A stretch of DNA of 64,000 bases from Microvenator marinus (GCF_007993755.1 NZ_CP042467.1:3434001-3498000); one strand, 5' to 3'; counted from the first letter of the stretch, positions 29,784 to 47,466 are shown. Notes: generated by a model not told the origin, from the letters alone. Made by a program: numbers and translations.

Positions 29784-29927
29784 GGCCGCCAGGATGCCAG
29801 GCTTGCACACCCTTGCGCAACTCACGAAGTGCCACTAAACTTCGATCTTCATAACAACACGCACCGACACTCGTCTCAGTGTCTGAAGTAGTGCGGGGGG
29901 CTTCGGCCACAAAACAAGGAGATCGAG

Positions 29928-31195: not shown

Positions 31196-31425
31196 GGCAA
31201 TGTTCAATTGTACTCATCTCTGACGCTTGGACCCTTCGATTTAGTTTTCAAAACTCGAAATTGTGAAGGGCGCGATTAGACCACCAACAGGTGTTGACAG
31301 ATTAACGCTCTCTGGAGAGACTGTCGTAGCGCATTCACTTGCGTTTAATCGACATCTTGAGGACTCTTTATGGCTTCGCCCTGCGGAAACGCTCAGGCTC
31401 GAACATACGGATAGAGCCTGACACT
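31196..31425 (+). promoter_or_regulatory. Leader/promoter region of the aryl-polyene operon
   Basis: 230 bases before the first cluster gene. A TTGACA box (31294-31299) is present but no fitting -10 at normal spacing. A small inverted repeat CTCTC-TG-GAGAG lies just after it at about 31308-31319. The promoter of the whole 16-kb operon should be here, but I cannot place it precisely. Confidence 0.35.
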
Positions 31426-32187
31426 ATGGCCGCGTTTCTTCAATCCCTTCTGGGTTTCATTCTGTTCTATTTCGGGGGCGTTGCACTTGGCTGGATCGTG
31501 TTGCCCCTTGTTCGCGTCTTTTCGGCAAACGAAGCTGTAGGTAAGCAGCGGTGCCAAAGAATTGTTGCCTCATGCTTCAAGCTCTTTTTGTGGTGGTTAT
31601 CAATCAGACTCTATAACTTCGGTTTCTTTTCTCAGTCTGGCGAGCCGCTCAACGCAACGTATTTCACCAAGCCAGGGGTCGTCATCGCAAACCATCCATC
31701 GCTTCTCGATATTGTACTGATCGTGGCAACGATTGGTCATGGAACCATCATTGTACACAAACGCTTCTACTTTAATCCGCTTCTTGGGCCGCTTGCGTGG
31801 TGTTGTGGGTATATCTGGGCGGATCTCTCAATAGGTCGAGGTGCAAAGGTGGTTCATGATGCGGTGTCTTGCATCAAGGCAGGTGGAACAGTCGTCATGT
31901 TCCCTGAAGGTACACGGTCTGAAGCTGACAACTTGATGAAGTTTCGTCGTGGTGCCTTTCAGATTGCCCAGATGGCCAACGTTCCGCTCATACCTCTTTG
32001 GCTGAATTGCGAACCGCGCTATATGGGGCGCAATCAGGGCTTTCGCGGATATCCAAAACGAGGTAAGGTATCCCTATATCTGTTTCCATTTGTGGCGGAC
32101 CAATCCGAATTTCTTGTAGAAGATGCACGCGGCGCTGCGAAATTTTGGGAAGAAAGATATCTTAAGAAATTAAATTCATTTGGATGA
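31426..32187 (+). CDS. Phospholipid/glycerol-type acyltransferase (PlsC fold)
   Basis: 253 residues from ATG 31426; a longer frame starting with TTG at 31339 is less likely. One membrane segment precedes the acyltransferase core with NHPSLLDI (the HX4D catalytic motif) and FPEGTRS, the substrate-binding block of PlsC-like enzymes. In APE clusters an acyltransferase of this class is thought to help attach the polyene to its lipid carrier. First gene of the cluster; its stop precedes the ACP start by 8 bases. Confidence 0.85.
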   Translation: MAAFLQSLLGFILFYFGGVALGWIVLPLVRVFSANEAVGKQRCQRIVASCFKLFLWWLSIRLYNFGFFSQSGEPLNATYFTKPGVVIANHPSLLDIVLIVATIGHGTIIVHKRFYFNPLLGPLAWCCGYIWADLSIGRGAKVVHDAVSCIKAGGTVVMFPEGTRSEADNLMKFRRGAFQIAQMANVPLIPLWLNCEPRYMGRNQGFRGYPKRGKVSLYLFPFVADQSEFLVEDARGAAKFWEERYLKKLNSFG

Positions 32188-32195
32188 GGAATCGA

Positions 32196-32726
32196 ATGAA
32201 AGCGTTTGAACGAGAGATTGCGGCGCTCACCATCGAAAAGCTTATGCTTACAGGTGTTACACCCGACACAATGGATGCGGATGGTTCGCTGGTCGAAGAT
32301 TATGGGCTCGATAGTGTCGATTTGTTGGAATTGGCGATGGCTATTGGCAGACGATATGGCATTGAGTTTCAAGATGGAAGCGAAGAGAATGCTTTGGTTT
32401 TTCGCTCGATTCGAACGCTCGCCGCGCATGTCGAAGCAAACCACGTTCCAGCTGAAGATCCCCAGCTGACCTTTGAACAACTGGCTTTTCAAGAGATTGT
32501 CAACGGTCTGTCTGATATGTTTGGGTTTCCTCCGGAGACCTTGTCTCGACACACTCAATTGGTCGAGGAGCTCGACCTTGATTCCCTTGACGCCCTTGAT
32601 CTGATCGTTCGTCTGCAAGACAAGTTGGGTGCCCGGATTCCCGACAGCCGATTGATGGAATTGCGTACCATTGGTGATGTGGTCGATATCGTCGTCGAAC
32701 TCAATGAGTCTGCAAAAGCGTCATGA
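32196..32726 (+). CDS. Tandem (two-domain) acyl carrier protein
   Basis: 176 residues from ATG 32196, preceded by GAGGAA; an ATGA-overlapping ATG at 32184 is the alternative. Two ACP domains are fused: the first has its phosphopantetheine Ser in DYGLDSVDLLEL and the second in ELDLDSLDALDLI. In described APE clusters these are two separate proteins (ApeE and ApeF). The chain and starter would be carried on these arms. Stop overlaps the ketosynthase start (ATGA). Confidence 0.92.
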   Translation: MKAFEREIAALTIEKLMLTGVTPDTMDADGSLVEDYGLDSVDLLELAMAIGRRYGIEFQDGSEENALVFRSIRTLAAHVEANHVPAEDPQLTFEQLAFQEIVNGLSDMFGFPPETLSRHTQLVEELDLDSLDALDLIVRLQDKLGARIPDSRLMELRTIGDVVDIVVELNESAKAS

Positions 32727-33868
32727 AGGTCTCTGTCGTTGATTATGCTCTAAGCTGTGCCTCTGGCGGGTCGACCGAAGAAGCGATGAACTCCATTTTT
32801 GGCGGAAAGTCAGGCATCGCGGAGGAGAGCGGAAGGTTTATCGGTCGAGTTTCGGCCTCACTTGGCTCGCTACCGGGCCAGTTTCTAGAGTTCGATACCC
32901 GACAAGCTCGACTCGCAGTGCACGTTGTTAAAATGATCGCCCCTTCCATCTTTAGAGCCCGTGAAAAGTGGGGGCCCAAGCGTGTTGCTGTGTTACTCGG
33001 TACGAGCACGGGTGGGATCGAATGGGTCGAGGCAAACTATACCCCCGGAACACGAGACGTCGTATCTTCGCTAGATGGAGGTGCGTGTAACAAGCAGGCA
33101 TTTGGCGCGGCGTCTTATGTCGTCCAAAACATGTTCGAGCTAGAAGGCCCGGCCTACGCGATCTCAACCGCATGCAGTTCTAGCTCGCACGTCTTTGGCG
33201 CTGCAAAGAGACTGATACACAGCGACAGGGTCGATGCAGTTGTCGTGCTGGGCGTGGATACGCTTTGTCATGTCACGATTGAAGGGTTTCTCGGACTGGG
33301 ACTGCTCGCAAGTTCCTTATGTCGTCCTTTCGACGTCGCAAGGGACGGCATCAATATTGGTGAAGCAGGTGCTGCATTCTTGCTGGAAAGGGATTTGGAC
33401 GCGGAGTTTCACCTTTGTGGTTTTGGAGCATCATCTGATGGCTATCACAGCACGCGCCCTCCTCCCGATGGTGCAGGCGCTGCCTTGTGCATGCAAGCGG
33501 CTCTCGAGGACGCCGGGCTTTTGCCTCAAAACGTCGTTGGTGTTCACACCCATGGAACGGGCACGGTTGAAAACGATCGCGCTGAAGGAAGGGCAATTAC
33601 AGGGGTGTTTGGCGCTGGGATGTCCGTCGTGTCGACCAAAGGTGCCACGGGGCATACCCTTGGCGCCTGCGGAGCACTGAACGCAGCCATCGCCCTGGAG
33701 AGCCTTAGGAGGCAATGCCTACCAGGAACACATGGCTTGGAGGTCATCGATCCGGTCCTCTCGGTGAACGCCGATAGCGCACCACGGCCTGTCACAGGCG
33801 ACTATGTGGCATCGAACAGTTTCGCCTTCGGTGGAAATAACGTCACGCTCATTTTGGGTAGGTCCTAA
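32723..33868 (+). CDS. Beta-ketoacyl-ACP synthase (ApeO/ApeR-like)
   Basis: 381 residues of a FabF-type ketosynthase with a complete Cys-His-His set: nucleophile STACSSSS, HTHGTGTVEND and KGATGHTLGA, and the end SNSFAFGGNNV. It condenses malonyl units onto the aryl chain. It lies next to the chain-length-factor-like gene (33868), which favours a KS-CLF pair (ApeO-ApeC-like). Confidence 0.88.
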   Translation: MKVSVVDYALSCASGGSTEEAMNSIFGGKSGIAEESGRFIGRVSASLGSLPGQFLEFDTRQARLAVHVVKMIAPSIFRAREKWGPKRVAVLLGTSTGGIEWVEANYTPGTRDVVSSLDGGACNKQAFGAASYVVQNMFELEGPAYAISTACSSSSHVFGAAKRLIHSDRVDAVVVLGVDTLCHVTIEGFLGLGLLASSLCRPFDVARDGINIGEAGAAFLLERDLDAEFHLCGFGASSDGYHSTRPPPDGAGAALCMQAALEDAGLLPQNVVGVHTHGTGTVENDRAEGRAITGVFGAGMSVVSTKGATGHTLGACGALNAAIALESLRRQCLPGTHGLEVIDPVLSVNADSAPRPVTGDYVASNSFAFGGNNVTLILGRS

Positions 33869-34548
33869 TGGCGTGGATTGAAGCAACAAGTTCATGGTGG
33901 CCGGGACGCGGTAAGTTGCCTGCATCGCAGCTTCTTGCGGGCTCCGCTTCGCGAAGAGCTGGAGACCTTACCCGTGCCTGCGCTCACGTCATCGACGAGT
34001 TAGGACCCTTTTCGAAAACAGTCCCTATCGTATTCGGCTCGAGTTTAGGGTGTGTGTCGGTGCTCTTTTCCCTTCTCGACGAAATCAAGCGTGATGAGTT
34101 GGGACTTTCGCCAATCGCCTTTTCGTCATCAGTGCATCATTCTCCCGTCGCGGCCGTAGGTGTATCCAATCAACATATCGGACTCTTAACTGCCGTGTCT
34201 GCAAACGAAGATCTGGCTGCGATGCTGATCATCGAGGCTTTAGGCTTGTCTTTGGAGTTTGATCGCGTGCTCGTGATCGGAGCAGAGGAGCCTTGGCCCA
34301 AAGCCTATGGTCACGAAGAATTCGAGTTGTACGCTGGTGCCTTTATGATGGCCCACGATTCAGAGCGGCAACTCATTGTCGAGACGAGCACCGAGCCGTT
34401 CAAGAACACACTATCCGGGCTGCTTCGATACAACCCCGCTGCGGGTCTTGAGAAGTTCTTAGAGTGGAGTCGAGAAGCAAAACCAGGTGATGAACTCATC
34501 ATTTCACCCAATCGTTCAGGGGGCTCATGGAAAGCGAGATGCCAGTAG
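33868..34548 (+). CDS. Ketosynthase-like chain-length factor
   Basis: 226 residues matching the short beta-ketoacyl-synthase-like proteins of APE clusters (ApeC type): FGSSLGCVSVLFSLL, then AFSSSVHHSPVAAVGV where a ketosynthase would place its Cys, and no HxHGTGT block. It lacks a catalytic Cys and His, so it is a non-catalytic partner that probably sets chain length with the ketosynthase before it. Start and stop overlap neighbours (1 and 22 bases). Confidence 0.8.
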   Translation: MAWIEATSSWWPGRGKLPASQLLAGSASRRAGDLTRACAHVIDELGPFSKTVPIVFGSSLGCVSVLFSLLDEIKRDELGLSPIAFSSSVHHSPVAAVGVSNQHIGLLTAVSANEDLAAMLIIEALGLSLEFDRVLVIGAEEPWPKAYGHEEFELYAGAFMMAHDSERQLIVETSTEPFKNTLSGLLRYNPAAGLEKFLEWSREAKPGDELIISPNRSGGSWKARCQ

Positions 34549-34979
34549 AGGTCTCGATCGAGGAGCTTATCCCACACTCCGGTCAGAGCGTGCTCTTGGA
34601 CCGAGTGATAGCCGTAAGCGAGACGCAGATACACTGCGAAGTCATGGTGAAGCCTGGTGGCCTCTACATTAAAGAAGGCGGTGTTGGGGCAAGTATCTGC
34701 ATTGAATGGATGGCGCAGGCGATTGCAGCATATGCCGGGTTTCATCGTCGTGAGAACTCAGAGCCGATTCAAGTCGGATTCTTGGTGAGTTGTCGCTGTG
34801 CTGAATTGCTCATTCCGTGGCTGGAAGTCAACCAAATGTTTACTGTTCGAGCAAAGGTTTTGCGTGATGGGGGAATGCAAATGGGATCCTTTAAATGTGA
34901 GGTCCTCGCGGGCGACGCGGTCGTCGCGAGGGCGACTCTGAATGTCTACCAGGGACCGTTAAGTCAGGGGGCTGTATGA
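34527..34979 (+). CDS. 3-hydroxyacyl-ACP dehydratase, hotdog fold (ApeP-like)
   Basis: 150 residues with IPHSGQSVLLDRV (catalytic His in the FabA/FabZ position) and IEWMAQAIAAYAG (helix with the catalytic acid). It removes water from the 3-hydroxyacyl chain to make trans double bonds. In described systems it acts as a heterodimer with an ApeI-type dehydratase, here found fused to the ligase (37507). ATG 34527 and ATG 34539 are both possible. Confidence 0.85.
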   Translation: MESEMPVEVSIEELIPHSGQSVLLDRVIAVSETQIHCEVMVKPGGLYIKEGGVGASICIEWMAQAIAAYAGFHRRENSEPIQVGFLVSCRCAELLIPWLEVNQMFTVRAKVLRDGGMQMGSFKCEVLAGDAVVARATLNVYQGPLSQGAV

Positions 34980-35692
34980 GAATGTTAATAACTGGAGCGA
35001 GTCGCGGGATAGGTGCAGCTATTGCGGTCGAGTTGGCAAAGACCCACGGTGGCCACATCACGCTCAACTATCGTTCGGATGATGTCGCGGCTGAACTCGT
35101 TGCTACGCAAGTTCGCGCTCTCGGGGCAGAAGTCGCGCTGGCCAAATTCGACGTCGCCGATAGAGAAGCCACAGAGGATGCGATCGCAGATATCCTCAGA
35201 GATGGGCCGATTTCGATCCTGGTCAACAACGCTGGCATCTCCAACGATGGCGTGTTCCCGTCGATGCAGCCAGAGGCCTGGGATAGCGTCATTCAGACTT
35301 CCCTAAACGGTTTTTACAACGTCACCAGGCAATTGGTCATGCCGATGGTGCAACAACGTAAAGGTCGCATCGTTACAATCTCTTCAATCTCTGGTGAAAT
35401 CGGGAATCGCGGCCAGGTAAACTACTCGGCCGCAAAAGCAGGACTTATCGGCGCGACAAAGGCTCTGGCAAAAGAAGTTGCCCGGCGCGGCGTTACGGTG
35501 AATGCGGTGACACCCGGACTTATCGAAACTGAGATGACCGCATCTGTGCCTCGCGACCGAGTCCTCCCAATGATACCGATGCAGAGGTTTGGAACTCCTG
35601 AAGAAGTCGCAAAGGTTGTAGCATTTCTGTGTAGTGACGGGGCTAGCTATGTCACCGGCCAGGTGATTGGGGTTAATGGGGGTATGGCATGA
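34976..35692 (+). CDS. 3-oxoacyl-ACP reductase, FabG-like (ApeQ-like)
   Basis: 238 residues, short-chain dehydrogenase: TGASRGIGAAIA (NADPH site), LVNNAGISNDG, catalytic Ser in TISSISG and the YSAAKAG motif (Tyr-x3-Lys). It reduces the 3-oxo group before dehydration. The ATG overlaps the previous stop (ATGA) and its own stop overlaps the next start. Confidence 0.93.
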   Translation: MRMLITGASRGIGAAIAVELAKTHGGHITLNYRSDDVAAELVATQVRALGAEVALAKFDVADREATEDAIADILRDGPISILVNNAGISNDGVFPSMQPEAWDSVIQTSLNGFYNVTRQLVMPMVQQRKGRIVTISSISGEIGNRGQVNYSAAKAGLIGATKALAKEVARRGVTVNAVTPGLIETEMTASVPRDRVLPMIPMQRFGTPEEVAKVVAFLCSDGASYVTGQVIGVNGGMA

Positions 35693-36912
35693 CACGACGG
35701 GTTGCCGTGACAGGTGTGGGAGTTATCTCACCGATTGGTTCTACGCTTAAGGATGTAGCAGAGTCGCTGACAAAGGGGCGGTCAGGGGTCCATGTTCAGG
35801 AAGCTTGGCGCTCAATCAATGGGCTCAACACGTTCTTGGGTGCCCCTGTCGACCAAGATCTCTCTGGGTTCACGAAGAAGGAAACTCGTACAATGGGCCG
35901 TGTCGGGCAATTGGCCGTCAGCGCCACTCAAGTGGCTCTCAAAGACGCCGGGATGTCAGAAAGTGACTGGCAGTCCATTCGTTGCGGAATTGCCTACGGA
36001 TCGACTCAGGGCTCGTCACAGGCACTTATCGAATTTGCCACCCAGATTATGAATTCCGGAGGGGGGCTTAACGGGGTGCGTCCCACAAACTATATCAAGT
36101 TCATGTCGCACACCTGTGCGGCAAATTTAGGGACGTTTTTTGGCGTACGTGGCCGTATCGTTACGACGTGTTCTGCGTGCACCAGCGGCTCTCAAGGTGT
36201 CGGCTTTGGCTATGAATCCATAAAGTACGGAATGCAGGATATCATGATTGCTGGAGGCGCCGAGGAGCTTCACTACACACATGCTGGCGTTTTCGACCTC
36301 TTGCGCGCAACCTCCACTCTGTACAACGACCGTCCTGATGCTACACCAAGACCGTTTGACAAAGATAGGGACGGATTGGTTGTCGCCGAAGGTGCCGCAA
36401 CACTCATCTTGGAGGAGTGGGAGCATGCAAAGAAACGTGATGCCACGATCTATGCCGAAGTGCTGGGCTATGGCACGACCTGCGATGGAGCGCACATGAC
36501 ATCGCCACAAAAGGACGGAATGGCTTCGGCTATGGCCGTCGCACTTGCGGACGCTAGAATTCCAGCAACTCAAATCGACTACATCAACGCTCATGCCACT
36601 GGTACCCAGATCGGTGACTATACCGAAAGCCACGCGACACTCTCTGCAATTGGTGACAAGACGCCCATCAGCTCGACAAAAGGAATTACTGGACACGCGT
36701 TGGGGGCTGCGGGTTCGTTGGAATCTGTGATTTCGATCCTCGCCCTGCGGGAGCAATTCTTACCCAAGAATTACAATCTGGAAACGCTAGACCCCGAATG
36801 TGCGAAGCTAAATTACGTTCTAGAAACAGAGTCAAGGAAACTTAAAACAGTCATGAACAATAACTTCGCATTCGGTGGTGTGAATACTTCGCTCATTTTT
36901 GGTCTGCCGTGA
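35689..36912 (+). CDS. Beta-ketoacyl-ACP synthase (second, FabF-like)
   Basis: 407 residues with an intact ketosynthase set: TTCSACTSGSQG (Cys), NAHATGTQIGD (His), KGITGHALGA (His) and the closing NNFAFGGVNTSL. The full length and the position after the reductase match the second, separate ketosynthase of APE clusters (ApeR). It may start or extend the chain. ATGA overlap with its upstream gene. Confidence 0.9.
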   Translation: MTRRVAVTGVGVISPIGSTLKDVAESLTKGRSGVHVQEAWRSINGLNTFLGAPVDQDLSGFTKKETRTMGRVGQLAVSATQVALKDAGMSESDWQSIRCGIAYGSTQGSSQALIEFATQIMNSGGGLNGVRPTNYIKFMSHTCAANLGTFFGVRGRIVTTCSACTSGSQGVGFGYESIKYGMQDIMIAGGAEELHYTHAGVFDLLRATSTLYNDRPDATPRPFDKDRDGLVVAEGAATLILEEWEHAKKRDATIYAEVLGYGTTCDGAHMTSPQKDGMASAMAVALADARIPATQIDYINAHATGTQIGDYTESHATLSAIGDKTPISSTKGITGHALGAAGSLESVISILALREQFLPKNYNLETLDPECAKLNYVLETESRKLKTVMNNNFAFGGVNTSLIFGLP

Positions 36913-37520
36913 GTCGGTCTGCCGTTCTCATCACCTCCACGGTCGTGTTCAGCATTTCGTATCCGCTGCTCGTTTTCGCTGGTCACGCCTACTTCTCGGT
37001 CCGAGACATCGCTTTGGGGCTCCTTGGACTGCTCTGTTTACGGCTCGCTTTCAGCATCCGTCGCCCAAGAGAGCTCGCGATTGCATCCGTCGCGCTTGTC
37101 CCAGTCGCCTATGCTGCTTTGTTTAGCGACGAGGTTGGTTTGCGCTTGATACCAGTCATGATCAATCTCGGCATGTTGGTGCTTTTTGGGAGCACTCTAA
37201 GAACAATTCCCGTCATTGAGCGATTTGCGCGCCTGGTTGATCCTGAGCTCAGTCAGGCGCAAGTGGCTCATTGTCGACAGTTTACACTCATTTGGTGTGT
37301 GTTTTTTGGCGCCAATGCCCTAGTTGCATTCGCCCTAAGCTGGGCGCCTTCAGCAATCTGGGCGATTTATACCGGGCCAGTGAACTACTGCTTGATGGGA
37401 CTGCTGCTCTTTGCCGAGTTCGTCGTCCGTCGATACCGTTTTAGAACGTACTCGGACAAACTCTACGATCGTGTCTTGCGCCGCGTGATTCCTCAACAGG
37501 TTGGCAATGTCTCAGATTAA
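36909..37520 (+). CDS. COG4648-type membrane protein (ApeG-like)
   Basis: 203 residues, GTG start overlapping the previous stop. About five membrane segments; the family feature is a hydrophobic protein with the block LTLRTIPVIERFARL-like region (here STLRTIPVIERFARLVDP) and CRQFTLIWCVFFGANAL. It is constantly found in APE clusters between the ketosynthase and ligase; its role is unknown, probably in membrane steps of assembly. Confidence 0.85.
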   Translation: MSRSAVLITSTVVFSISYPLLVFAGHAYFSVRDIALGLLGLLCLRLAFSIRRPRELAIASVALVPVAYAALFSDEVGLRLIPVMINLGMLVLFGSTLRTIPVIERFARLVDPELSQAQVAHCRQFTLIWCVFFGANALVAFALSWAPSAIWAIYTGPVNYCLMGLLLFAEFVVRRYRFRTYSDKLYDRVLRRVIPQQVGNVSD

Positions 37521-39048
37521 GTTTGTCCAAACCGATCAGCGCTTCACGTCCCAAGTAGCGGAGCTGCGTGGTGTGATTTGCCAACAAGCAGGTGACGTTT
37601 TAGCGACCTGCACTGATCCGAAAGTCACGGCGATTCTTGCTCACGCAGCTTGGGCAGAAAAACGCCGCATCATCTTCGCTCCTACGAATCAACCGGAAGC
37701 GGTGGAAGAGATCGTTCGAACTCGAAAGGTTTTCGTGCTTTCTGGTGAAGAAAGAAGCGCTACCCAGGTCAACGAGCCCATCAGGACTCCAGAAGATTCA
37801 GACATACTTGCCGAGTTCTACACCTCCGGCAGCACCGGAACCCCCATCAGTGTGACCAAAACGGCGCGGCAACTCTTCTCGGAGGCGTCCTACCTGACGG
37901 AGCATTTTCGGATCGAGCCTCACGATGTGTTGATGTCGGGTATCCCCGCGAGGCACCTCTATGGATTCTTGTTTTCGGTTATGATCCCAGCCGTCAGCGG
38001 TTGTTGGGTCGTCGAAGCTCAACCCGTCTATCCGGCATCAATTCGGCAGACCTGTGAAAGAAATGGAGTGACACTTTTCGTCAGCACTCCTGCACAGCTA
38101 AGAACTTTGGCACGCGTTGAAAACAAGCTGATGGCCAGAATTCTGTTTTCTTCCGGTTCGGCACTTGATCCCAATACTCGCCAAGCCCTGGAACAGACCG
38201 GACTTCGGGTGGTCGAAATCTTTGGCTCAACTGAAACAGGAGGCATTGCCACTCGTGAAGATAGCGGTATATGGCTTCCTTTTGCCACGAACGAGATCAA
38301 ACAGGGATCCGATGGAAACCTGCATGTCAGGTCGCCCTTCCTCCAGAATCCTGCCGAATTCTTCGCCTGCCAAGATTGCGTCCGAATCGTACCAGAGGGC
38401 TTCCAATCGCTCGGGCGGTCTGACGATATCGTCAAAGTAGGTGGAAAGCGTGTTTCCCTCGACTTCATCAAAAACGCCATCTTGACCCAGCCGGGCATCA
38501 TGGATTGCGCAATCTTTGTTCAAGACGACTTCCGTGTGCGACTTCATGCCTTTGTGGTTGCAAGCAAGAACACCAAGACGTCAACCCTTCGGGCTACGCT
38601 TTTGAAGCAGCTCGATCCGGTCACACTCCCACGCATTCATTTGGTAAGTGAGTTGCCCAAAACCGAGCTAGGCAAGGTGTCAAAGAGCGATTTGGAAAAA
38701 TTGTTGGAGAGGAGCGAGCGCGAAATTGACGTAGTCTCATCCGAGTCGTCTGCCGACCAAGTGGTCATCTGTTTCACCGTTCATGAAGACTGCAGATTCT
38801 TTGAAGGACATTTTGACGACTTTCCGATTCTATCCGGAATTGCGCAAATCAAATTTGTCGAGCACCAGATCGACCTGGCGTGGGCTGACTTGGGACACCC
38901 AATTCGGTATGAGCGGCTGAAATTTCGCAAACCGATTCTTCCCAACACCAGCGGCAAAATGACGCTCGCGCGAAGCGGAAGCCGGTTCTCTTTTCGCTTT
39001 GAATCCGAGCAAGGCATTCATACAAGTGGAGACGTGATTTATGCCTGA
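37507..39048 (+). CDS. AMP-dependent acyl ligase fused to a hotdog dehydratase
   Basis: 513 residues from ATG 37507 (an upstream TTG at 37501 is possible). The ligase part has the phosphate loop FYTSGSTGTP, IFGSTETGG and the hinge SDDIVKVGGKR, typical of ANL enzymes that activate the aryl acid (ApeH-like). After about residue 410 comes a hotdog domain with CRFFEGHFDDFPILSGIAQIKF, the signature of the ApeI dehydratase (His and acid in the same helix). In the described systems these are separate proteins. The C terminus overlaps the next gene by 8 bases. Confidence 0.88.
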   Translation: MSQIKFVQTDQRFTSQVAELRGVICQQAGDVLATCTDPKVTAILAHAAWAEKRRIIFAPTNQPEAVEEIVRTRKVFVLSGEERSATQVNEPIRTPEDSDILAEFYTSGSTGTPISVTKTARQLFSEASYLTEHFRIEPHDVLMSGIPARHLYGFLFSVMIPAVSGCWVVEAQPVYPASIRQTCERNGVTLFVSTPAQLRTLARVENKLMARILFSSGSALDPNTRQALEQTGLRVVEIFGSTETGGIATREDSGIWLPFATNEIKQGSDGNLHVRSPFLQNPAEFFACQDCVRIVPEGFQSLGRSDDIVKVGGKRVSLDFIKNAILTQPGIMDCAIFVQDDFRVRLHAFVVASKNTKTSTLRATLLKQLDPVTLPRIHLVSELPKTELGKVSKSDLEKLLERSEREIDVVSSESSADQVVICFTVHEDCRFFEGHFDDFPILSGIAQIKFVEHQIDLAWADLGHPIRYERLKFRKPILPNTSGKMTLARSGSRFSFRFESEQGIHTSGDVIYA

Positions 39049-39790
39049 TCCAACCTATCGTATCTGCTGCATTATCCCCTGCTACAACAACGTCGCCACG
39101 ATTGCGCAAGTCGCGAAACGTGCTCGGAGAGAAGTGGAGGACGTCTTTATCGTAGACGATGCCAGCAACCCTCAAACGCGCCAAGTGATCGAACGTCTGG
39201 GTGCGGAAGGCTTTCATGTCATAACCCGAGAAGAAAACGGCGGTAAAGGTGCAGCCGTTAAGTCTGGTTTCGCCGCAGCAGTCGCAAAAAGCTTCACACA
39301 TGCGATTCAGGTGGATGCCGATGGTCAACATGATTTGGATCAAATTGGCCCGTTCATTGAGTATAGCCGTCGGGCGCCTCAGGCGTTGATTCTGGCCCAC
39401 CCCATTTTCGATGAAACCGCACCGCTGGGGCGGCGACTCGGCCGCAAAATTACCCTGTTTTGGACACATATTGAGACCCTGGGTAAGAAGATCGTTGACC
39501 CAATGTGCGGGTTCCGAGTCTACCCGCTTCAAGCCGCCATAGCCGCGGATGCCCGTGGTAACCGGATGGACTTTGATATTGAAATCGCGGTCAAGTTGGT
39601 TCGACTTGGGGTGCCTGTTCTCAACTTTCCCATCAAGGTCCGATACCTCACTGCCGACGAAGGTGGCCTCTCAAGCTTTCGATTGTTTTGGGACAATGTC
39701 GCGATCTCGATGATCCATACACGACTCGTGTTCTCGCTGATTCCCTGGGCACTTAGCCCCAAACGCCCGCTCGGACTCATCCATGAATGA
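39041..39790 (+). CDS. Family 2 glycosyltransferase
   Basis: 249 residues of a GT-A enzyme: CCIIPCYNNVATI, VFIVDDASN, NGGKGAAVKSGF, QVDADGQHD (DxD metal site) and PMCGFRVYP. It transfers a sugar, probably to a lipid or to the polyene anchor. In E. coli APE clusters a glycosyltransferase is fused to an LpxL-type acyltransferase; here the two are separate, adjacent and overlapping (8 bases). Confidence 0.88.
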   Translation: MPDPTYRICCIIPCYNNVATIAQVAKRARREVEDVFIVDDASNPQTRQVIERLGAEGFHVITREENGGKGAAVKSGFAAAVAKSFTHAIQVDADGQHDLDQIGPFIEYSRRAPQALILAHPIFDETAPLGRRLGRKITLFWTHIETLGKKIVDPMCGFRVYPLQAAIAADARGNRMDFDIEIAVKLVRLGVPVLNFPIKVRYLTADEGGLSSFRLFWDNVAISMIHTRLVFSLIPWALSPKRPLGLIHE

Positions 39791-40739
39791 AGAACACGTG
39801 GTGACTCCTACTGAACCTGACGACTGGCTCAGCATACCAGAACGTGGTGGTGCGTTTGGTATCTACTTCTTAGCATGGACCGCGACCCGTGCTGGACGGT
39901 GGGTGCCTCGCCTAATGCTAGGGCCAATTGCAGCGTACTACTATCTGATGAGTGGTACCTCGCGACGAGCCATCACCGAGTTTTATCAGCGTCTAAACGG
40001 TAGTCGACCTCGGAGGCGTGATGTCTTTCGAAACATCCACCGCTTTTCGCAAGTTGCTTTGGATCGAGTGTTCTTTTTTGTCGGGAAAACCAGCGCATTC
40101 GAATTCAAGAGAACGGGGTCTCATCATTTGGCGGAGCAAAGCGCAAAGGGCACAGGTGGGGTGCTCATAGGCGCGCACCTCGGGTCATTTGCGGCAATGA
40201 GCGGTGCCGGTGAAACCAAGAATTATCGCATCAACGCAGTGATGTACAACGCCAACTCGAAGGTTTTAAACAGCGTGTTGCAGCGCTTTGGAGGCAAAGA
40301 TGCAATTCGGACCATCGACATCTCCACCGACCGAGTTTCAGCCGTCCTCACTATGAAGAAGCGTATTGAGGAAGGGGAGTTTGTTGCACTCCTTGCAGAC
40401 CGCGTCGTGCCGGGTTCGCAATCGAGCCGAGTTGATTTTTTGGGAGGTTCGGCGAAGATATCGACGGGTGGATTTGTCCTGGCATCGGTACTAAAATGCC
40501 CGGTTTTTTTGGTTTTTGGTCTCTACCGTGGCGGGAATAAATATGACGTGTATTGCGAACCATTTGAAGAACTGATTCGTTTGCCGCGAGGAAAGGAGAA
40601 GCAGGAGGTTTTAGACCAACTCGCACAAAAATATGCCGACCGTTTGGCCTATTATGCGGCAAAAGCACCCGATAATTGGTTCAATTTCTATAGTTTCTGG
40701 GAACCCGACACAACGGGAACTTTGGAGGGAGAAAAATGA
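39783..40739 (+). CDS. LpxL-like acyltransferase with altered catalytic motif
   Basis: 318 residues of the lipid A/lauroyl acyltransferase fold: a membrane-near start, GTGGVLIGAHLGSFAAMSG, LADRVVPGSQSSRVDFLGG and a polar end. The HX4E catalytic dyad of this fold should read HLGSxE, but the acid is Ala here. Some family members tolerate changes, yet this one may use another acid or be inactive. It would attach an acyl or polyenoyl group to a glycolipid. Coupled to the next gene (ATGA). Confidence 0.8.
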   Translation: MNEEHVVTPTEPDDWLSIPERGGAFGIYFLAWTATRAGRWVPRLMLGPIAAYYYLMSGTSRRAITEFYQRLNGSRPRRRDVFRNIHRFSQVALDRVFFFVGKTSAFEFKRTGSHHLAEQSAKGTGGVLIGAHLGSFAAMSGAGETKNYRINAVMYNANSKVLNSVLQRFGGKDAIRTIDISTDRVSAVLTMKKRIEEGEFVALLADRVVPGSQSSRVDFLGGSAKISTGGFVLASVLKCPVFLVFGLYRGGNKYDVYCEPFEELIRLPRGKEKQEVLDQLAQKYADRLAYYAAKAPDNWFNFYSFWEPDTTGTLEGEK

Positions 40740-42277
40740 AGTCAGTCGTATTCGGTTCGACCCCGTTGACAGTTGAGGACATCGTCGGTGTAGCGCAAGG
40801 GCGTTTTACGCCGAAGCTCAATGTCGACCCATCGTTTCGCAAAGAGATCGATCATAGCCGAAGAAAGTTTGAGGGGTTGGTTGGTCAAGACGCACGAGTT
40901 TACGGCGTCACCACAGGGTTTGGCGAAAACATACGCATGACTATTGGTTCGTCCGAGGCGTCAAATCTCGCCCAAAATCTAATTCGCTTTCATGGCTGTG
41001 GAACCGGAGATATCTTCGGTGAGCACGAAGCTGCAGCGATTACAGCCTGTCGGCTGCAGTCTCTATGCTCGCCTTATTCTGCTGTGCGTTGGGAGCTTCT
41101 GGAGCAAGTACTTTGGATGCTTCAGAACCGAGTGCTTCCAGCAATTCCCGTGGAAGGCTCTGTTGGGGCAAGTGGCGATCTCACACCACTTTCTTACCTT
41201 GCAGCCAGTGTTGCTGGCACCCGAGAGGTCCTTTGGAAGTCTGCACTGCATCCGACCGAAGAGGTCTTTGCTGAGTTGGGGCGCACTCCGCTCGATATCG
41301 GCCCTAAAGAAAGTCTCGCGATTATGAACGGCACCAGCGCCATGACGGGCGTCGCCACATTGGTGATCCACCGAGCGCGGCGACTCAGCGAATTGGCTGC
41401 ATATTTGTCGGCCGTTCTCAGTGATGTCACCGACGCGAACTCGGCGCACTTTGATCCTAGACTGCATTCTAGCAAGCCACATGCTGGCCAGATTTTGGCG
41501 GCAGAGCGCATGGCAAGATGGCTGTGCTACGATCCCGGCCGTCATGTCGATCCCGAACAGCTGCAAAGCGTCTATTCGATTCGCTGCGCGCCACACGTCA
41601 TTGGCGTGCTTTCAGACACGCTCAAGCCGGCAACTCTCTGGGTTGAAACCGAATTGAATGGCTCAAGCGATAATCCATTGTTTGACGCGGAAATGGGAGT
41701 CGTTCTTCACGGCGGAAATTTCTATGGAGGGCATGTAGCAATGGCGATGGATATGTTGAAGACGAGCATTGCCAGCGTGGCCGATCTCATGGATCGGCAA
41801 ATGCAGTTGCTTTGTGGACCAGTCGTGGCCAACGGATCGCATCTTCCTCGCAACCTGGTGCCGCCGGATCATCATGAAGGCGGAGACGCACGCCATGGAT
41901 TCAAAGCCATGTCGATTGCGACTTCTGCGTTGGCGGCTGAAGCCTTGAAGTTGACGATGCCTGCGACGGCGTTTAGCCGCAGCACAGAAAGCCATAATCA
42001 GGACAAAGTCAGTATGGGCACCATTGCTGCACGCGATGCGTCAAGGGTGATGCAGCTGACAGAACGAGTCGCTGCCATTCTGATTATCGCGCTCGCCCAA
42101 GCGGTTGACCTGAGACCGCCAGCAGCCACCCAGAAAGCATCCCGAGCCTTCCGTGATTTAATCCGTGAGGATATCGACTTCGCCGACAACGATCGCCGCT
42201 TCGACGGTGATATTCGCACCGTCGTCGGTCGGTTGGAAGCCTCCCTTGTCGAAGACTTGCGCAGGCTCGAAAGATGA
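40736..42277 (+). CDS. MIO-dependent aromatic amino acid ammonia-lyase (HAL/PAL/TAL family)
   Basis: 513 residues. The MIO precursor Ala-Ser-Gly is at 145-147 in GSVGASGDLTPLSY; Tyr56 in YGVTTGFG is the catalytic base region, and SSDNPLF and NGSHLPRN-type active-site loops are present. The substrate-selecting dyad is Phe85-His86 (in NLIRFHGCGTG), unlike the Ser-His of histidine lyases or the His-Leu of characterised tyrosine lyases. Because it lies in an aryl-polyene operon, production of a cinnamate-type starter from tyrosine or phenylalanine is the best guess. Overlaps the next gene (ATGA). Confidence 0.9.
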   Translation: MKSVVFGSTPLTVEDIVGVAQGRFTPKLNVDPSFRKEIDHSRRKFEGLVGQDARVYGVTTGFGENIRMTIGSSEASNLAQNLIRFHGCGTGDIFGEHEAAAITACRLQSLCSPYSAVRWELLEQVLWMLQNRVLPAIPVEGSVGASGDLTPLSYLAASVAGTREVLWKSALHPTEEVFAELGRTPLDIGPKESLAIMNGTSAMTGVATLVIHRARRLSELAAYLSAVLSDVTDANSAHFDPRLHSSKPHAGQILAAERMARWLCYDPGRHVDPEQLQSVYSIRCAPHVIGVLSDTLKPATLWVETELNGSSDNPLFDAEMGVVLHGGNFYGGHVAMAMDMLKTSIASVADLMDRQMQLLCGPVVANGSHLPRNLVPPDHHEGGDARHGFKAMSIATSALAAEALKLTMPATAFSRSTESHNQDKVSMGTIAARDASRVMQLTERVAAILIIALAQAVDLRPPAATQKASRAFRDLIREDIDFADNDRRFDGDIRTVVGRLEASLVEDLRRLER

Positions 42278-42687
42278 CAACTCGAACACCCATTTATGTT
42301 CACTTCGAGGTACCTTTTCATGATGTCGACCGCGCCAATATCGTCTGGCATGGTCACTATCTAAGGTACTTTGAGTTCGCAAGAACGGCGCTCATGCGTG
42401 CGCATCGTTTAGATGTCGATGATTTCATCGATTTAGGACTCGGACTCGTTGTTTCAGAATCGAGATGTCGCCATGTGTCACCCGCACGATATGCGGACGT
42501 CCTGCGAATTGAGGCTCGCTTTGAAGCAGTGACTCACCAGATTGTTGTCGGGTATTTGATTGTGAATGAAACAAGTGGGAAAGTAGTCGCTCGCGGACGT
42601 ACAAGTATGGTTTGTGTCAATTTTGATTTGGACCTCCTGCCAAAAGTGCCTGCTGAAATCCTTGATCGAATTGGTAAGTTGCCATGA
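42274..42687 (+). CDS. Hotdog thioesterase, 4-hydroxybenzoyl-CoA type
   Basis: 137 residues with the YbgC/4HBT pattern FHDVDRANIVWHGHYLRYFE (Asp at position 17) and a central helix, as in APE-cluster thioesterases. It would release a wrongly loaded or finished acyl chain from CoA or ACP. It overlaps the ammonia-lyase by 4 bases and the next gene by 4. Confidence 0.88.
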   Translation: MTTRTPIYVHFEVPFHDVDRANIVWHGHYLRYFEFARTALMRAHRLDVDDFIDLGLGLVVSESRCRHVSPARYADVLRIEARFEAVTHQIVVGYLIVNETSGKVVARGRTSMVCVNFDLDLLPKVPAEILDRIGKLP

Positions 42688-43307
42688 GAATAGTACTAAT
42701 CTTTTTGTGTGCGTGGTTGTGTTGGACACCTTCGCTTGGTGCGCAAGGTGCTCCTGATGAGGCCACCCCTTCAGCAGAATTTCTCTTAAAGACATTGCGG
42801 TCGAAACAGGTGATTCGAGTTGAATTTCAGGAAGAAGTTCGCCTGCCTTTCCTTAAACAACCGTTGAAATCGAGTGGGTATCTGGTTATCCATCCTGATA
42901 AAGGATTCATTCGTAAGGTCCTCTCACCAGCCGAGTCCGCGGCCGCATTTGATGGCAACCGAATTACCGTAACAGACGCGTCTGGGACTTTTTCGGTCGA
43001 CAAGGAAACTGCCCCACAGGTGGTGTCTGCGATGTTGTTGTGGAGAACTCTCGTCACTGAGTCCGAACCCTTAGATAGGAATTACGACGTCTCGGTCAAA
43101 ACGAACGATGGGGAGTGGTCGGTCACCTTAAAGAGCCGAGACAAAGGTGCGATTTTTGAAAAGTGCGTCATTCGAGGCAAAGACAACGTCGTTATGACGC
43201 TAGACCTGGACGAATCGGATGAGGTCAAGCGATTCATTCGTTTTGGAGTGCCTCAACCTGCGTCCAAATTGTCCAACGAAGAATCCGCGATGTTGGAGAG
43301 TCTGTGA
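42684..43307 (+). CDS. LolA-like outer-membrane carrier protein
   Basis: 207 residues with a signal peptide (FLCAWLCWTPSLGAQG) and the beta-strand pattern of LolA-like carriers: RVEFQEEVRLPFLKQPLKSSGYLVI, FIRKVLSP, DGNRITVTD. In APE systems this protein is thought to move the polyene lipid across the periplasm. It precedes the MMPL exporter gene with a 4-base overlap. Confidence 0.85.
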   Translation: MRIVLIFLCAWLCWTPSLGAQGAPDEATPSAEFLLKTLRSKQVIRVEFQEEVRLPFLKQPLKSSGYLVIHPDKGFIRKVLSPAESAAAFDGNRITVTDASGTFSVDKETAPQVVSAMLLWRTLVTESEPLDRNYDVSVKTNDGEWSVTLKSRDKGAIFEKCVIRGKDNVVMTLDLDESDEVKRFIRFGVPQPASKLSNEESAMLESL

Positions 43308-45613
43308 GGGGTTTTGTCGGGGCACTCTTCGTCATCATCCTTGGTGGTCTTTTGACGTTTGTTTTCACGCAAAGACAGCCCCGCTTCCCGTCAGATATCG
43401 TGGAGTTTTTGCCGGTCGGAGATGACTCGTCCAGTGCAGCTAAAGAGCTTGCGCGATCTGGATTGTCACAGAGAGTCGTCCTTTTGATCGAGGGTGTTCC
43501 CCATGAACAACGCCGAGAGTTTGTTGGTAAGTTCGTTGAAGATATGAAGGGTTCGGGACTTTTTCGTGAGGTTTCAGGCGGCCCTCCAAACACCATGTCG
43601 CAAGTTCATGACGTGTACTTTCCCCATCGCTATAGTCACCTCGCTTCCACTTCCGAGGAGTTGGAGCAGCTCAATACAGCCGCTGCAATGCAGGACAAGG
43701 CCGAAAGCTTTTTGGCGGCTCTCAATGGTCGCTATTCGATGTTCTTGCAACGAGCTGGCCCAAAGGATCCACTCCTCGCTTACATAGGTATGGTGGAGCG
43801 CCTATCAACCCTCATGCGTCCAACGATGCACGTTGTTGATGGATTCTATCAAACCTCGTCGGGCGAATCCGTCATCTTTGCAGAGCTCAGTGTCTCCCCG
43901 TTTGATTCTAAATCGGCGGTTCAAGTCCATGACTTCATTCACACGAGTTTCGACCAACACAATGTTTTCGAAGCTAAGTTGATGATCAGCGGCGTTTATC
44001 GATACACAAAGTCGATTTCAACGACCATTAAGAATGATATTCAGCGAATCACCGTCGTGAGCCTGTTCGGGATCCTCTTCATTTTCGGATTTGGGTTTGG
44101 TAAGCTTCGGTTTGCGTTGCTTCCGATTCTTTCGATTGGCGTGGGTGTTCTGGCCGCCATACTTTTTACGTCAATTGTGCTCAGTGAAATTCATCTGATT
44201 GCGTTGGCTTTTGGAGCCTCACTAATAGGAGTTTGTGTCGACTTTTCGATTCACTTCTTGAATCTTTCGACGCACTCAAAGAGGTCGGTTTGGCCACCAA
44301 TTTGGCTCGGTGCCCTCACAACAATTGGGGGATTTTCTGTGCTCTTGACATCGACGGTTCCCGCACTCAAGCAAATCGCTGTGTTCTCAACCATTGGGGT
44401 CGTGACCTCGGTTGGAACCACGTGGCTACTCGCTCGCCACTTCTTCTTGACGGAAAAGGCACCACGTCATCAACGAGCCGTCGTGGCAGTGAATCAAATG
44501 TTCGATCTTCTGCGTACCAGACCCCTTTGGGCGCTGAGCCTTGGAGTCCCGACACTTTTGATTCCGATGCTGGGCTTGCCTTCGCTACACATCGAAAAGG
44601 ACATGAGGTCGCTTCGTGACCCTTTGCCGGCACTAAGAATCGAAGATGAATTGGTACAAGCCAAGATCTCAGGAGAGAGAAGCTCAAGTGTGATCATTGT
44701 GCGGGGCAACGATGCCCAAACCGCACTTGATCGAAACGACAGCCTCGCAGTTCAATTGGAACACGCTATCGCGAACCGAGAGCTTGAAGGTTACTCGTCG
44801 ATGCACCACCTTCTGTGGTCAGGGAAAACCCAGGCCATGAATCGTGAATTTCTCCAAGAGAATAGAAATTCGCTATTGAGCAAAATGTCCAAGGCCTATG
44901 ACGAGGCTGGGGTGGACTCAGCCACTCTTGAGCCAATCAAGGAACAGAATTTTTTTGCTCCGAAGGAGTTTCTAACGCTGAGTGACCTCAGAGGGAGCGC
45001 CCTGTCGTCGTTGGTCGACCTCTTTGATGCCAGAAAGGATGGGACCGTGCTTCTGACGTTTTTGGAACGTGTGGATAAGCCTCAAGCGCTTGCCGACCGT
45101 GTTGCTGCCGTACCAGGTGCGTTCATGTTTAACCAAGAGGATTCGTTGAATTCAGCGTGGCAGGAACTCGGTCACGAAATCACTCGGGCCGCCTTGTACG
45201 GACTAGCTTTGATCGCGTTCATTGTCGTCCTTGGGTTCCGAAAGGTTAGGTCGATATTGGTAGCCATGGTGCCACCCTTTGCGGGATGTTTCGCGAGCCT
45301 CGGGGTGTTTGGACTAATGGAAGTACCTGTCGGTCCCATCCATGGTCTGGGGCTCATGTTGGTGATTGCATTGGCGGCTGACTATGGAGTGATGTTGGCT
45401 TCCCACCACCGTGACATCGGGCCTGCGGCGCTGAGTATCTTCATGGCCTATGGCTCGACGATGTTTTCGTTCGGGGCACTGGGGTTATCAGAACATCCAC
45501 TTCTAAGGAGTTTTGGACTCACTATTGCTATGGGTGCAACATTTGCGCTGCTCTTGTTGCCATTTTCAGCAGTCCTACTCCAACGCAAGAAAGATACCGT
45601 ATGCGAATCGTAG
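43304..45613 (+). CDS. MMPL/RND-superfamily exporter
   Basis: 769 residues, GTG start overlapping the LolA-like stop. Two repeated halves each with one N-terminal helix, a periplasmic domain (about 35-240; about 425-610) and a bundle of five helices; FGASLIGVCVDFSIHFLNL and ALAADYGVMLASHH are the usual MMPL transmembrane motifs with an acidic residue. It probably lifts the polyene-lipid out of the inner membrane. Its end overlaps the DUF3261 gene by 13 bases. Confidence 0.9.
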   Translation: MRGFVGALFVIILGGLLTFVFTQRQPRFPSDIVEFLPVGDDSSSAAKELARSGLSQRVVLLIEGVPHEQRREFVGKFVEDMKGSGLFREVSGGPPNTMSQVHDVYFPHRYSHLASTSEELEQLNTAAAMQDKAESFLAALNGRYSMFLQRAGPKDPLLAYIGMVERLSTLMRPTMHVVDGFYQTSSGESVIFAELSVSPFDSKSAVQVHDFIHTSFDQHNVFEAKLMISGVYRYTKSISTTIKNDIQRITVVSLFGILFIFGFGFGKLRFALLPILSIGVGVLAAILFTSIVLSEIHLIALAFGASLIGVCVDFSIHFLNLSTHSKRSVWPPIWLGALTTIGGFSVLLTSTVPALKQIAVFSTIGVVTSVGTTWLLARHFFLTEKAPRHQRAVVAVNQMFDLLRTRPLWALSLGVPTLLIPMLGLPSLHIEKDMRSLRDPLPALRIEDELVQAKISGERSSSVIIVRGNDAQTALDRNDSLAVQLEHAIANRELEGYSSMHHLLWSGKTQAMNREFLQENRNSLLSKMSKAYDEAGVDSATLEPIKEQNFFAPKEFLTLSDLRGSALSSLVDLFDARKDGTVLLTFLERVDKPQALADRVAAVPGAFMFNQEDSLNSAWQELGHEITRAALYGLALIAFIVVLGFRKVRSILVAMVPPFAGCFASLGVFGLMEVPVGPIHGLGLMLVIALAADYGVMLASHHRDIGPAALSIFMAYGSTMFSFGALGLSEHPLLRSFGLTIAMGATFALLLLPFSAVLLQRKKDTVCES

Positions 45614-46191
45614 CAATAACTATTCTATTTCTCGTTGGAGCGGGGTGTGCAGGAACGGAGAAGAAAAATTCGCCTGAAGCCAATCTTTCACTCGTTGCCG
45701 TGTCACCGGATATCGCTCCCTTTTTCATCCGCCAAAGGGTCGAGATCTCATATGGCGAGGACACCCATCTACTTGACGCCGTGATTGAGTTCGACGGAAC
45801 CACTGTGCGAACTGTTTTTCTGGACCCCGCTTCACGCCCCGCCATTGTCATGGAGCAGGCGGGGAACGAATTCAAAGCGTTCGGACCACAAGTAGACGCA
45901 CTCCCTTTCGACCCCCGATGGATTATGCAGGTCATCGGATCGGCGCTTTTAATGAGCCCACTCCATCAATTGGAATTCGAACAGGAAGTGAGGCCTTCCG
46001 CTCTTGGCGTCGTGCGAGACACCGCTGTTGACGGGCGCCTTACAACTCGATTCGTTGAGAGTCACCATACGCAGATCGAGTACTCTTGGGACGGACACGC
46101 ATGCCCAACCTCAATCAAAATCGAAAACAGTAAACAGCTCTATTCGTTGAATATTACTACTTTGCAGTGTGGAGAAGACTTAAATGAGTGA
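45601..46191 (+). CDS. DUF3261 lipoprotein (ApeN-like)
   Basis: 196 residues with a lipobox (LVGAGC, Cys about 16) and the DUF3261 order of blocks: LLDAVIEFDG, AIVMEQAGNEFKAFGPQ, DPRWIMQVIGSALL, LNITTLQC. This family travels with LolA-like and MMPL genes in aryl-polyene clusters and is an outer-membrane lipoprotein of unknown exact role. It overlaps both neighbours. Confidence 0.85.
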   Translation: MRIVAITILFLVGAGCAGTEKKNSPEANLSLVAVSPDIAPFFIRQRVEISYGEDTHLLDAVIEFDGTTVRTVFLDPASRPAIVMEQAGNEFKAFGPQVDALPFDPRWIMQVIGSALLMSPLHQLEFEQEVRPSALGVVRDTAVDGRLTTRFVESHHTQIEYSWDGHACPTSIKIENSKQLYSLNITTLQCGEDLNE

Positions 46192-47431
46192 CTTACCAGT
46201 TGTAGTCATCGGTAGTGGGCCTGGAGGTGTAGTTTGTGCTGCGGCACTCAAGCAGATGGGCATCGACGTAGTTATCATCGAACGAGGCAGGTTCCCACGA
46301 TTTACGATTGGAGAATCGCTTCTACCCATAACCATGTCTCATCTGAAGGAAGTGGGTCTTTTGGAGGCGGTTGAAAGTGCCGGGTTTCAAAAAAAAGAGG
46401 GTGCGGTTTTCGCGAATGACACCTGTTCAACGAGAATCGACTTTTCAAAGTCTTGGAATCCAAGCGCTCCACATGCGTACAGTCTTCAACGTGCGCACTT
46501 TGACCACCTACTGGCCCAGCAGGCCGAAAGGCGTGGAATCGAAATTCAATGGAATTCGACGATTGAATCCGCCGAATACAACGGCATTCAATGGACACTC
46601 CGAGTTCGAGGGCCCGCGGGGCCATATACGGTTCTAGCAAGCTTTGTGGTCGACTCCTCCGGCAGCGATATCCTGCAGCAAAGACCCACCGCGTCTTCAA
46701 CAGACAATCCCGTTTTCTCCGCAGTCTTCTGCCATATGAAAGATCCCAATCGACCCGCTGGATTTGAGGAAGGTGCCACTTGGATTCTCTCGAATGATTC
46801 AACTACTTGGGGTTGGATGATTCCGTTTAGCGACGGAACCTGTTCTGTGGGATTTGTAGGCCCAGACGCCGAAGTACGAGGCATCGCGGAAACCGATACT
46901 GAGCGCTTCTACACCCACCTACATGCATATTCGGCCTCAAGTCAGCGCTTTTCCAACTGCGAAGAGGTGCGTATCAAACCGACATCAGTAACCAATTTTA
47001 GACGAGAGTTCGTCAAGCCCTCGGGGCCAGGATATTGTTTGGTAGGCAACAGCTTGGGGTTCCTCGACCCGATCTTTTCATCGGGCCTTGCGATTGCAAC
47101 GGAGTCCGGGCTCCGTGCGGCCAAAGTAATACACCACACTCGAGAAAATCCGGATTTCAGCTGGAGTCAAAACTACGACAAGCCGTTGTCTCGTGGCCTA
47201 CGTGTTATGTCAGACTGCGTTAGTGCCTGGTATGATGGAGTACTGCGAGACCTGATCTACTCAAACACGACCAACAGATACTCAGCTCATTTTGAAAAAC
47301 GTATCACGGGCCTCCTCGCCGGAGGGGTTTGGGACGAAACAAATTCTCTCACCGAAGACACCGCTTGGAACCTGCGATTTCTCCAACAGAGAATTCAAAA
47401 GAAGGAGGTTTCACAGCGCCCAGAGGAATGA
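46184..47431 (+). CDS. FAD-dependent oxidoreductase with halogenase hallmarks
   Basis: 415 residues. The Rossmann GSGPGG (10-15) binds FAD and GESLLP (43-48) is typical of the PltA/CmlS-like group. The family hallmarks of flavin-dependent halogenases all occur: candidate catalytic Lys71 in GFQKKEGAVF, W-x-W-x-I-P at 209-214 (WGWMIP), and F-x2-P-x2-S-x-G at 293-301 (FLDPIFSSG). Known relatives sharing these motifs also include non-halogenating oxidoreductases, so activity is inferred. Xanthomonadin clusters have such a halogenase. It is the last gene of the operon. Confidence 0.75.
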   Translation: MSDLPVVVIGSGPGGVVCAAALKQMGIDVVIIERGRFPRFTIGESLLPITMSHLKEVGLLEAVESAGFQKKEGAVFANDTCSTRIDFSKSWNPSAPHAYSLQRAHFDHLLAQQAERRGIEIQWNSTIESAEYNGIQWTLRVRGPAGPYTVLASFVVDSSGSDILQQRPTASSTDNPVFSAVFCHMKDPNRPAGFEEGATWILSNDSTTWGWMIPFSDGTCSVGFVGPDAEVRGIAETDTERFYTHLHAYSASSQRFSNCEEVRIKPTSVTNFRREFVKPSGPGYCLVGNSLGFLDPIFSSGLAIATESGLRAAKVIHHTRENPDFSWSQNYDKPLSRGLRVMSDCVSAWYDGVLRDLIYSNTTNRYSAHFEKRITGLLAGGVWDETNSLTEDTAWNLRFLQQRIQKKEVSQRPEE

Positions 47432-47446: not shown

Positions 47447-47466
47447 CGGGGTTGTTTCCCCGTTTT
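47447..47466 (+). terminator. Possible intrinsic terminator of the aryl-polyene operon
   Basis: CGGGG / CCCCG stem (5 bp) with a TTGTTT loop, followed by TTTT, 15 bases after the last stop. The stem is short, so it may be only partly efficient. Confidence 0.55.

Follow-up and report, generated by a model that had tools for sequence, protein, structure and literature searches.

Clusters for aryl polyene (APE) lipids are characterized by two independently translated acyl carrier proteins (ACPs), and one of these carriers has been proposed to hold the starter while the other holds malonate (PMC8358021). An ammonia-lyase already serves in the literature as a characteristic gene of the Vibrio fischeri-type APE (PMC8719888, PMC5851621), and the Aliivibrio fischeri cluster is compared here through citing papers. 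A halogenase gene has been described in the xanthomonadin and arcuflavin clusters (PMC3691225, PMC3949708), and neighboring genes resembling ApeO and ApeC are found in Lysobacter (ORF17/16; PMC3691225) and Azoarcus (arcK/arcJ; PMC3949708). The locus considered here lies at 31426-47431 of a 64,000-nucleotide stretch (the window; NZ_CP042467.1:3434001-3498000) of the 5,847,748-bp genome of Microvenator marinus, whose genus is now listed as Allomicrovenator, Bradymonadales, in the NCBI taxonomy. Its 17 genes very probably form a single operon for making and exporting an APE lipid, of the type whose clusters contain a lyase, as in Vibrio fischeri and Acinetobacter. Bradymonadia are predators whose fermentation products have so far yielded no report of a functional secondary metabolite (PMC11509652); the intact APE lipid gene set is now extended to this group.

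This assignment is supported because all 17 genes belong to APE families and another genus of the same taxonomic family has a collinear 17-gene cluster, because Acinetobacter baumannii shares the gene set (with separate carriers and another order) and Pseudoalteromonas nearly does so, and because APE enzymes of known structure are among the matches of the ketosynthase (KS), chain-length factor (CLF) and dehydratase. Genes, families, key motifs and conserved neighborhood were read directly. All 17 open reading frames (ORFs) lie on the plus strand and overlap at each of the 16 junctions by 1-22 bp, most commonly through the 4-bp ATGA/GTGA arrangement. Hidden Markov models (HMMs) trained on APE proteins of E. 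coli, Acinetobacter and Pseudoalteromonas, and on none from Bradymonadales, match 16 of the 17 products, including the ApeG-type and LolA-like proteins that are blank in Pfam. The complete, tightly coupled operon described in the earlier note is therefore borne out, as is the make-up it listed, namely fused ACPs, a ligase-dehydratase ORF, a separate family 2 glycosyltransferase (GT) and acyltransferase (AT), a lyase and a flavoprotein; no methyltransferase was detected in the operon. The features are as follows.

Gene 1, 31426..32187, plus strand: lysophospholipid acyltransferase, ApeD-type (PF01553 5.2e-25; APE HMM 4.3e-30; HX4D motif NHPSLLD); TTG at 31339 is another possible start.
Gene 2, 32184..32726, plus strand: didomain ACP, N-terminal domain ApeE-type and C-terminal domain ApeF-type (two PF00550 stretches; BLAST and tree).
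Gene 3, 32723..33868, plus strand: ketosynthase, ApeO-type (top PDB matches A. baumannii 7f28_B, 1.7e-63, and 6qsp).
Gene 4, 33868..34548, plus strand: chain-length-factor-like KS half protein, ApeC-type (PF13723 3e-19; 7f28_A).
Gene 5, 34527..34979, plus strand: ApeP-like dehydratase (PF22817 2.6e-13; PDB 6qsr_B 3.3e-15).
Gene 6, 34976..35692, plus strand: ketoreductase, ApeQ/FabG-type (PF13561 3.3e-59; APE HMM 5.4e-89).
Gene 7, 35689..36912, plus strand: second ketosynthase, ApeR-type (PDB 4ewg, 7f27; NF006587 above cut-off).
Gene 8, 36909..37520, plus strand: membrane protein, ApeG-type, COG4648 in E. coli (APE HMM 5.3e-36; no Pfam match).
Gene 9, 37501..39048, plus strand: fusion of acyl-ACP ligase (ApeH) and ApeI-like dehydratase (PF00501 1.3e-24; APE HMM ligase at 11-405, E 1.9e-53, and dehydratase at 412-514, E 2.8e-17); ATG at 37507 is a possible start instead of TTG at 37501.
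Gene 10, 39041..39790, plus strand: family 2 glycosyltransferase, the N-terminal half of ApeJ (PF00535 4.2e-18; APE HMM 3.6e-63).
Gene 11, 39783..40739, plus strand: LpxL-type acyltransferase, the C-terminal half of ApeJ (PF03279 5e-11; motif alignment).
Gene 12, 40736..42277, plus strand: aromatic amino-acid ammonia-lyase, Phe/Tyr type (PF00221 2.3e-139; under the hutH cut-off).
Gene 13, 42274..42687, plus strand: 4HBT thioesterase, ApeK-type (PF13279 3.4e-17; APE HMM 2.7e-24).
Gene 14, 42684..43307, plus strand: LolA-like carrier, ApeL-type (APE HMM 1.3e-13; no Pfam match).
Gene 15, 43304..45613, plus strand: RND/MMPL exporter, ApeM-type (APE HMM 5.0e-68; PF03176 weak).
Gene 16, 45601..46191, plus strand: DUF3261 lipoprotein, ApeN-type (PF11659 7.5e-07).
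Gene 17, 46184..47431, plus strand: tryptophan-halogenase-family flavoprotein (PF04820 2.3e-18; PDB 3nix; motifs).
Terminator-like hairpin, 47447..47462, plus strand: 16 bp past the last stop codon, a pattern match of a kind that shuffled sequences give at least as often.

The synthase set is complete, comprising the ApeO KS with its ApeC CLF, the ApeR KS, the ApeH ligase, the ApeI and ApeP dehydratases and the ApeQ reductase. Gene 3 is closest to the solved ApeO enzymes (7f28_B, 6qsp) and gene 7 to ApeR (7f27, 4ewg), where 7f28 and 7f27 are identified by their titles together with PMC8358021. The ApeO and ApeC genes are adjacent, as they also are in many Myxococcota clusters, unlike in E. coli and A. 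baumannii where the two stand apart, and the ApeO-C-P-Q-R block sits mid-operon between the carrier gene and ApeG. The attachment and export set is likewise complete, with ApeD, ApeJ (split), ApeK, ApeL, ApeM and ApeN types present.

Several points weigh against this assignment. The only PDB match of the ApeC-type protein is the partner chain 7f28_A, and it is weak (E 0.0035); the DUF3261 protein is recognized by Pfam alone, scoring above the PF11659 cut-off with no match to the Bradymonadales-free APE HMM; the search for XanB2-type proteins (PF21168) gave no match in the genome, operon included, nor in any control, and other routes to hydroxybenzoate may exist; and the gene 11 acyltransferase reads HLGSFA, with Ala replacing the acid of HX4(E/D) found in most APE relatives. 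At the same position, Ala is also seen in two further clusters (L041, L049) and Ile in another (L166). As gene 11 is without the acidic residue of this motif, its catalytic acid may be lost, and this step of lipid attachment may be inactive or take a different form.

The proposed pathway, including all reactions, the product and the carrier stoichiometry, is extrapolated from those of E. coli, Xenorhabdus and Acinetobacter, with individual steps drawn from PMC8253772 and PMC8358021. The lyase would convert Phe or Tyr to cinnamate or 4-coumarate, which the ApeH domain of the fused ligase-dehydratase would load as aryl starter onto the N-terminal, ApeE-type carrier domain. ApeO and ApeC would then extend the starter with malonyl units held on the C-terminal, ApeF-type domain, the didomain carrier presumably keeping starter and extender at 1:1, with each cycle completed by ApeQ reduction and ApeI/ApeP dehydration and with ApeR as the second ketosynthase. 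The 4HBT thioesterase would free the chain, ApeD, the GT2 enzyme and the LpxL-like enzyme would attach it to lipid, and the MMPL, LolA-like and DUF3261 proteins would carry the lipid to the outer membrane.

Part of the evidence on the starter comes from the lyase. Gene 12 keeps the methylidene-imidazolone (MIO) triad ASG and has NQD at the position of MED in the HutH of the same genome. Histidine lyases typically carry Glu at this motif, whereas Phe/Tyr lyases carry Gln. With 368 bits against a HutH cut-off of 539, gene 12 is not HutH either by score or by the Glu of the QED/MED motif, and it shares 43% identity with the A. baumannii APE lyase and 33% with the genome's HutH; its RFHGCG motif does not settle a preference for Phe or Tyr. 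A separate histidine ammonia-lyase above the hutH cut-off is located elsewhere in the genome at approximately 3.116 Mb (L192, G000:C1), 0.36 Mb from the cluster; its neighbors are an HD-domain-like ORF and a lipoprotein resembling peptidyl-prolyl isomerases. A search for a UbiC-type chorismate lyase, which did match its E. coli control, gave no hit in the genome. The starter is therefore likely to be cinnamate or coumarate, since the lyase is distinct from HutH, no UbiC-type lyase was found, and flexirubin offers a precedent, its starter being 4-coumarate made from Tyr (PMC3992019); the cinnamate-type head proposed in the earlier note gains support from the same observations. It is unlikely that the starter is instead 4-hydroxybenzoate, as in the E. 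coli APE, with the lyase serving another role. Characterized ApeH enzymes do load 4-hydroxybenzoate (PMC8253772), and the flavoprotein occurs without a lyase in 7 of 18 surveyed Pseudomonadota clusters, each showing six or more of eight core genes; weighed against this are the undetected UbiC-type lyase, the flexirubin precedent and the presence of the lyase gene within the operon in all three Bradymonadales clusters.

A further candidate product is a flexirubin-like pigment, in which the aryl polyene is esterified with a dialkylresorcinol. Bacteroidota loci with a related lyase and flavoprotein do appear among the matches listed, and flexirubin itself starts from 4-coumarate. Against these stand the ligase, carriers and exporter, which score as APE type, the score of the gene 12 lyase, which falls far under the flexirubin tyrosine ammonia-lyase cut-off, and a search of the operon in which no darA/darB-type genes were found, making a flexirubin-like product highly improbable.

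For the APE lipid operon as assigned, the flavoprotein encoded by gene 17 probably modifies the aryl head or the polyene. Its GxGxxG motif, Lys71, WGWMIP (WxWxIP) and FLDPIFSSG (FxxPxxSxG) are all intact, and its top solved relative over nearly the full length is 3nix, a 'flavoprotein/dehydrogenase' (1.1e-61), followed by CmlS (2.2e-34) and other halogenases. An AlphaFold model of the protein reached a mean predicted local distance difference test (pLDDT) score of 54 from a three-sequence alignment and was not used. A keyword search of the literature found the APE flavin enzyme undescribed except as a 'probable halogenase' in Acetobacteraceae (PMC8776678). Halogenation of the aryl head by gene 17 as an FADH2-dependent halogenase, as proposed for xanthomonadins, is a tentative and rather doubtful possibility. 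The intact motifs and the several solved halogenases ranked after 3nix speak for it, as do, by description, the brominated Xanthomonas pigments that accompany a halogenase gene, with Lysobacter having neither (PMC3691225). However, the motifs do not single out gene 17 as a halogenase, because nearly all APE flavoproteins aligned carry them; the best solved match is named a flavoprotein/dehydrogenase, and Azoarcus, again likened by description, has an annotated halogenase yet a non-brominated pigment (PMC3949708).

As for how unusual this make-up is, 10 of the 18 surveyed clusters from Pseudomonadota have the lyase, 15 have the flavoprotein and 12 the ligase-dehydratase fusion, while GT and AT are split in 12 of 17; an ApeB-like methyltransferase occurred in 2 of 18, as judged with a single E. 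coli seed that unrelated methyltransferases would escape. Lyase, flavoprotein, ligase fusion and split GT/AT with no detected methyltransferase come together in five Pseudomonadota clusters, A. baumannii among them, the other four being gammaproteobacterial, from the class of Cobetia, with one from Cobetia itself (L154). Outside the three Bradymonadales genomes, nine Myxococcota clusters show the lyase in six and the whole combination in three. The earlier note had presented the make-up as a departure from described APE clusters, a view that finding the same fusions, gene order and flavin enzyme in a known cluster would contradict; the departure stands for the ACP fusion and gene order, and it does not for the ligase fusion, split GT/AT, lyase, flavin enzyme and lack of an annotated or detected methyltransferase, all of which are found in A. 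baumannii and the four gammaproteobacterial clusters. APE-like gene sets with an aromatic lyase were also seen, among the matches listed, in metagenome-assembled genomes of Fibrobacter (L064) and Desulfobacterium (L095), and a contig scan with the ApeR-type KS gave, again among the matches listed, mostly loci without an APE gene set and few APE loci.

The ACP fusion itself is a 180-aa protein with no internal stop, in which both domains keep the DSV/DSL serine. For 22 of 23 clusters its N-terminal domain scores higher against the ApeE-type carrier, and for 22 of 23 its C-terminal domain does so against the ApeF-type carrier, with which the tree is concordant. By holding its ACPs in one ORF, M. 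marinus departs from the two-carrier characteristic noted in PMC8358021, a variant feature rather than a pathway requirement. The fusion was seen in only three genomes, those of M. marinus (G000), G001 (same family, 47% identity) and G022 (same taxonomic order, 45%), and as it is seen in three genomes an assembly error is unlikely to be its source. Carriers are separate genes in 23 of 23 other clusters having both, and in searches covering 274 genomes from the class of Cobetia, 190 from that of Thalassospira and 379 from the phylum, no fusion was found outside the three Bradymonadales genomes, every two-domain match listed having a stop codon between the domains. In G022 (contig C841), the lower half of the cluster is present twice (L042, L043), the copies lying a constant 24,829 bp apart with 878 of 14,152 ungapped positions differing, which may be either a real duplication or an assembly artefact. 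The fusion could be taken further to define Bradymonadales as a distinct APE subtype, a tethered type II synthase with its didomain starter/extender carrier beside an adjacent KS-CLF, which, along with the flavoprotein and an acyltransferase of changed motif, would make a new, possibly halogenated, cinnamate-headed polyene lipid; this extension is decidedly unlikely. A natural ApeE-ApeF fusion nevertheless lets one test whether the two carriers must be free, and it is a direct test case for the proposal that one carrier holds starter and the other malonate.

The base composition of the cluster was considered as a sign of horizontal acquisition and rejected, since its GC content of 0.523 is no outlier against the genome (0.544, standard deviation 0.041, 20 stretches); one of the sampled 16-kb genome stretches (among L172-L191, G000) has a GC content of 0.374 against the mean of 0.544. 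Although the GC content of the cluster is unremarkable, the gene 17-type flavoprotein (E<=1e-25) is found in 2 of 21 genomes of the family, M. marinus and G001, a pattern of patchy gain or loss. Elsewhere in the window, 27027-29825 on the minus strand holds a 932-aa ORF with, by eye, a phospholipase D-like N terminus and a helicase.

In comparing the operon to known systems, the xanthomonadin and arcuflavin clusters share by description a type II aryl-polyene synthase, a KS next to a KS half-protein, a GT that is separate from the AT and a halogenase gene, and differ in a XanB2-type chorismatase starter supply and in having no reported ammonia-lyase (PMC3691225, PMC3949708). E. coli CFT073 (L062) shares the carriers, ligase, dehydratases, KS/CLF, reductase, GT/AT, thioesterase, LolA, exporter and DUF3261 protein, whereas its methyltransferase is present, its GT/AT (ApeJ) is fused, its ligase, dehydratase and ACPs are separate, and it is without the lyase and flavoprotein. 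Pseudoalteromonas sp. CF6-2 (L144) has the lyase, flavoprotein and split GT/AT with no annotated methyltransferase, but its ligase and dehydratase are separate, as are its ACPs, and the gene order is different.

Closer in content is A. baumannii CP035931 (L143), which has a ligase-dehydratase fusion (552 aa there), split GT2/acyltransferase, aromatic lyase and flavoprotein, and also shares the thioesterase, LolA, exporter, DUF3261, two KS, CLF, dehydratase and reductase with no annotated methyltransferase; identity to M. marinus is 31% for the flavoprotein and 43% for the lyase. It differs in having two ACP genes, the CLF at the 5' end, a KS-dehydratase-ketoreductase-KS run at the 3' end and the flavoprotein before DUF3261. 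The closest system is the cluster of G001 in the second genus of the family (L041), in which 17 of 17 genes occur in the same order, ACP fusion included, with ligase, ACP and flavoprotein identities of 43-47%. The remaining novelty is thus a lineage-specific carrier fusion and gene order, apart from which the M. marinus operon is unexceptional within a widespread family of yellow protective membrane pigments.

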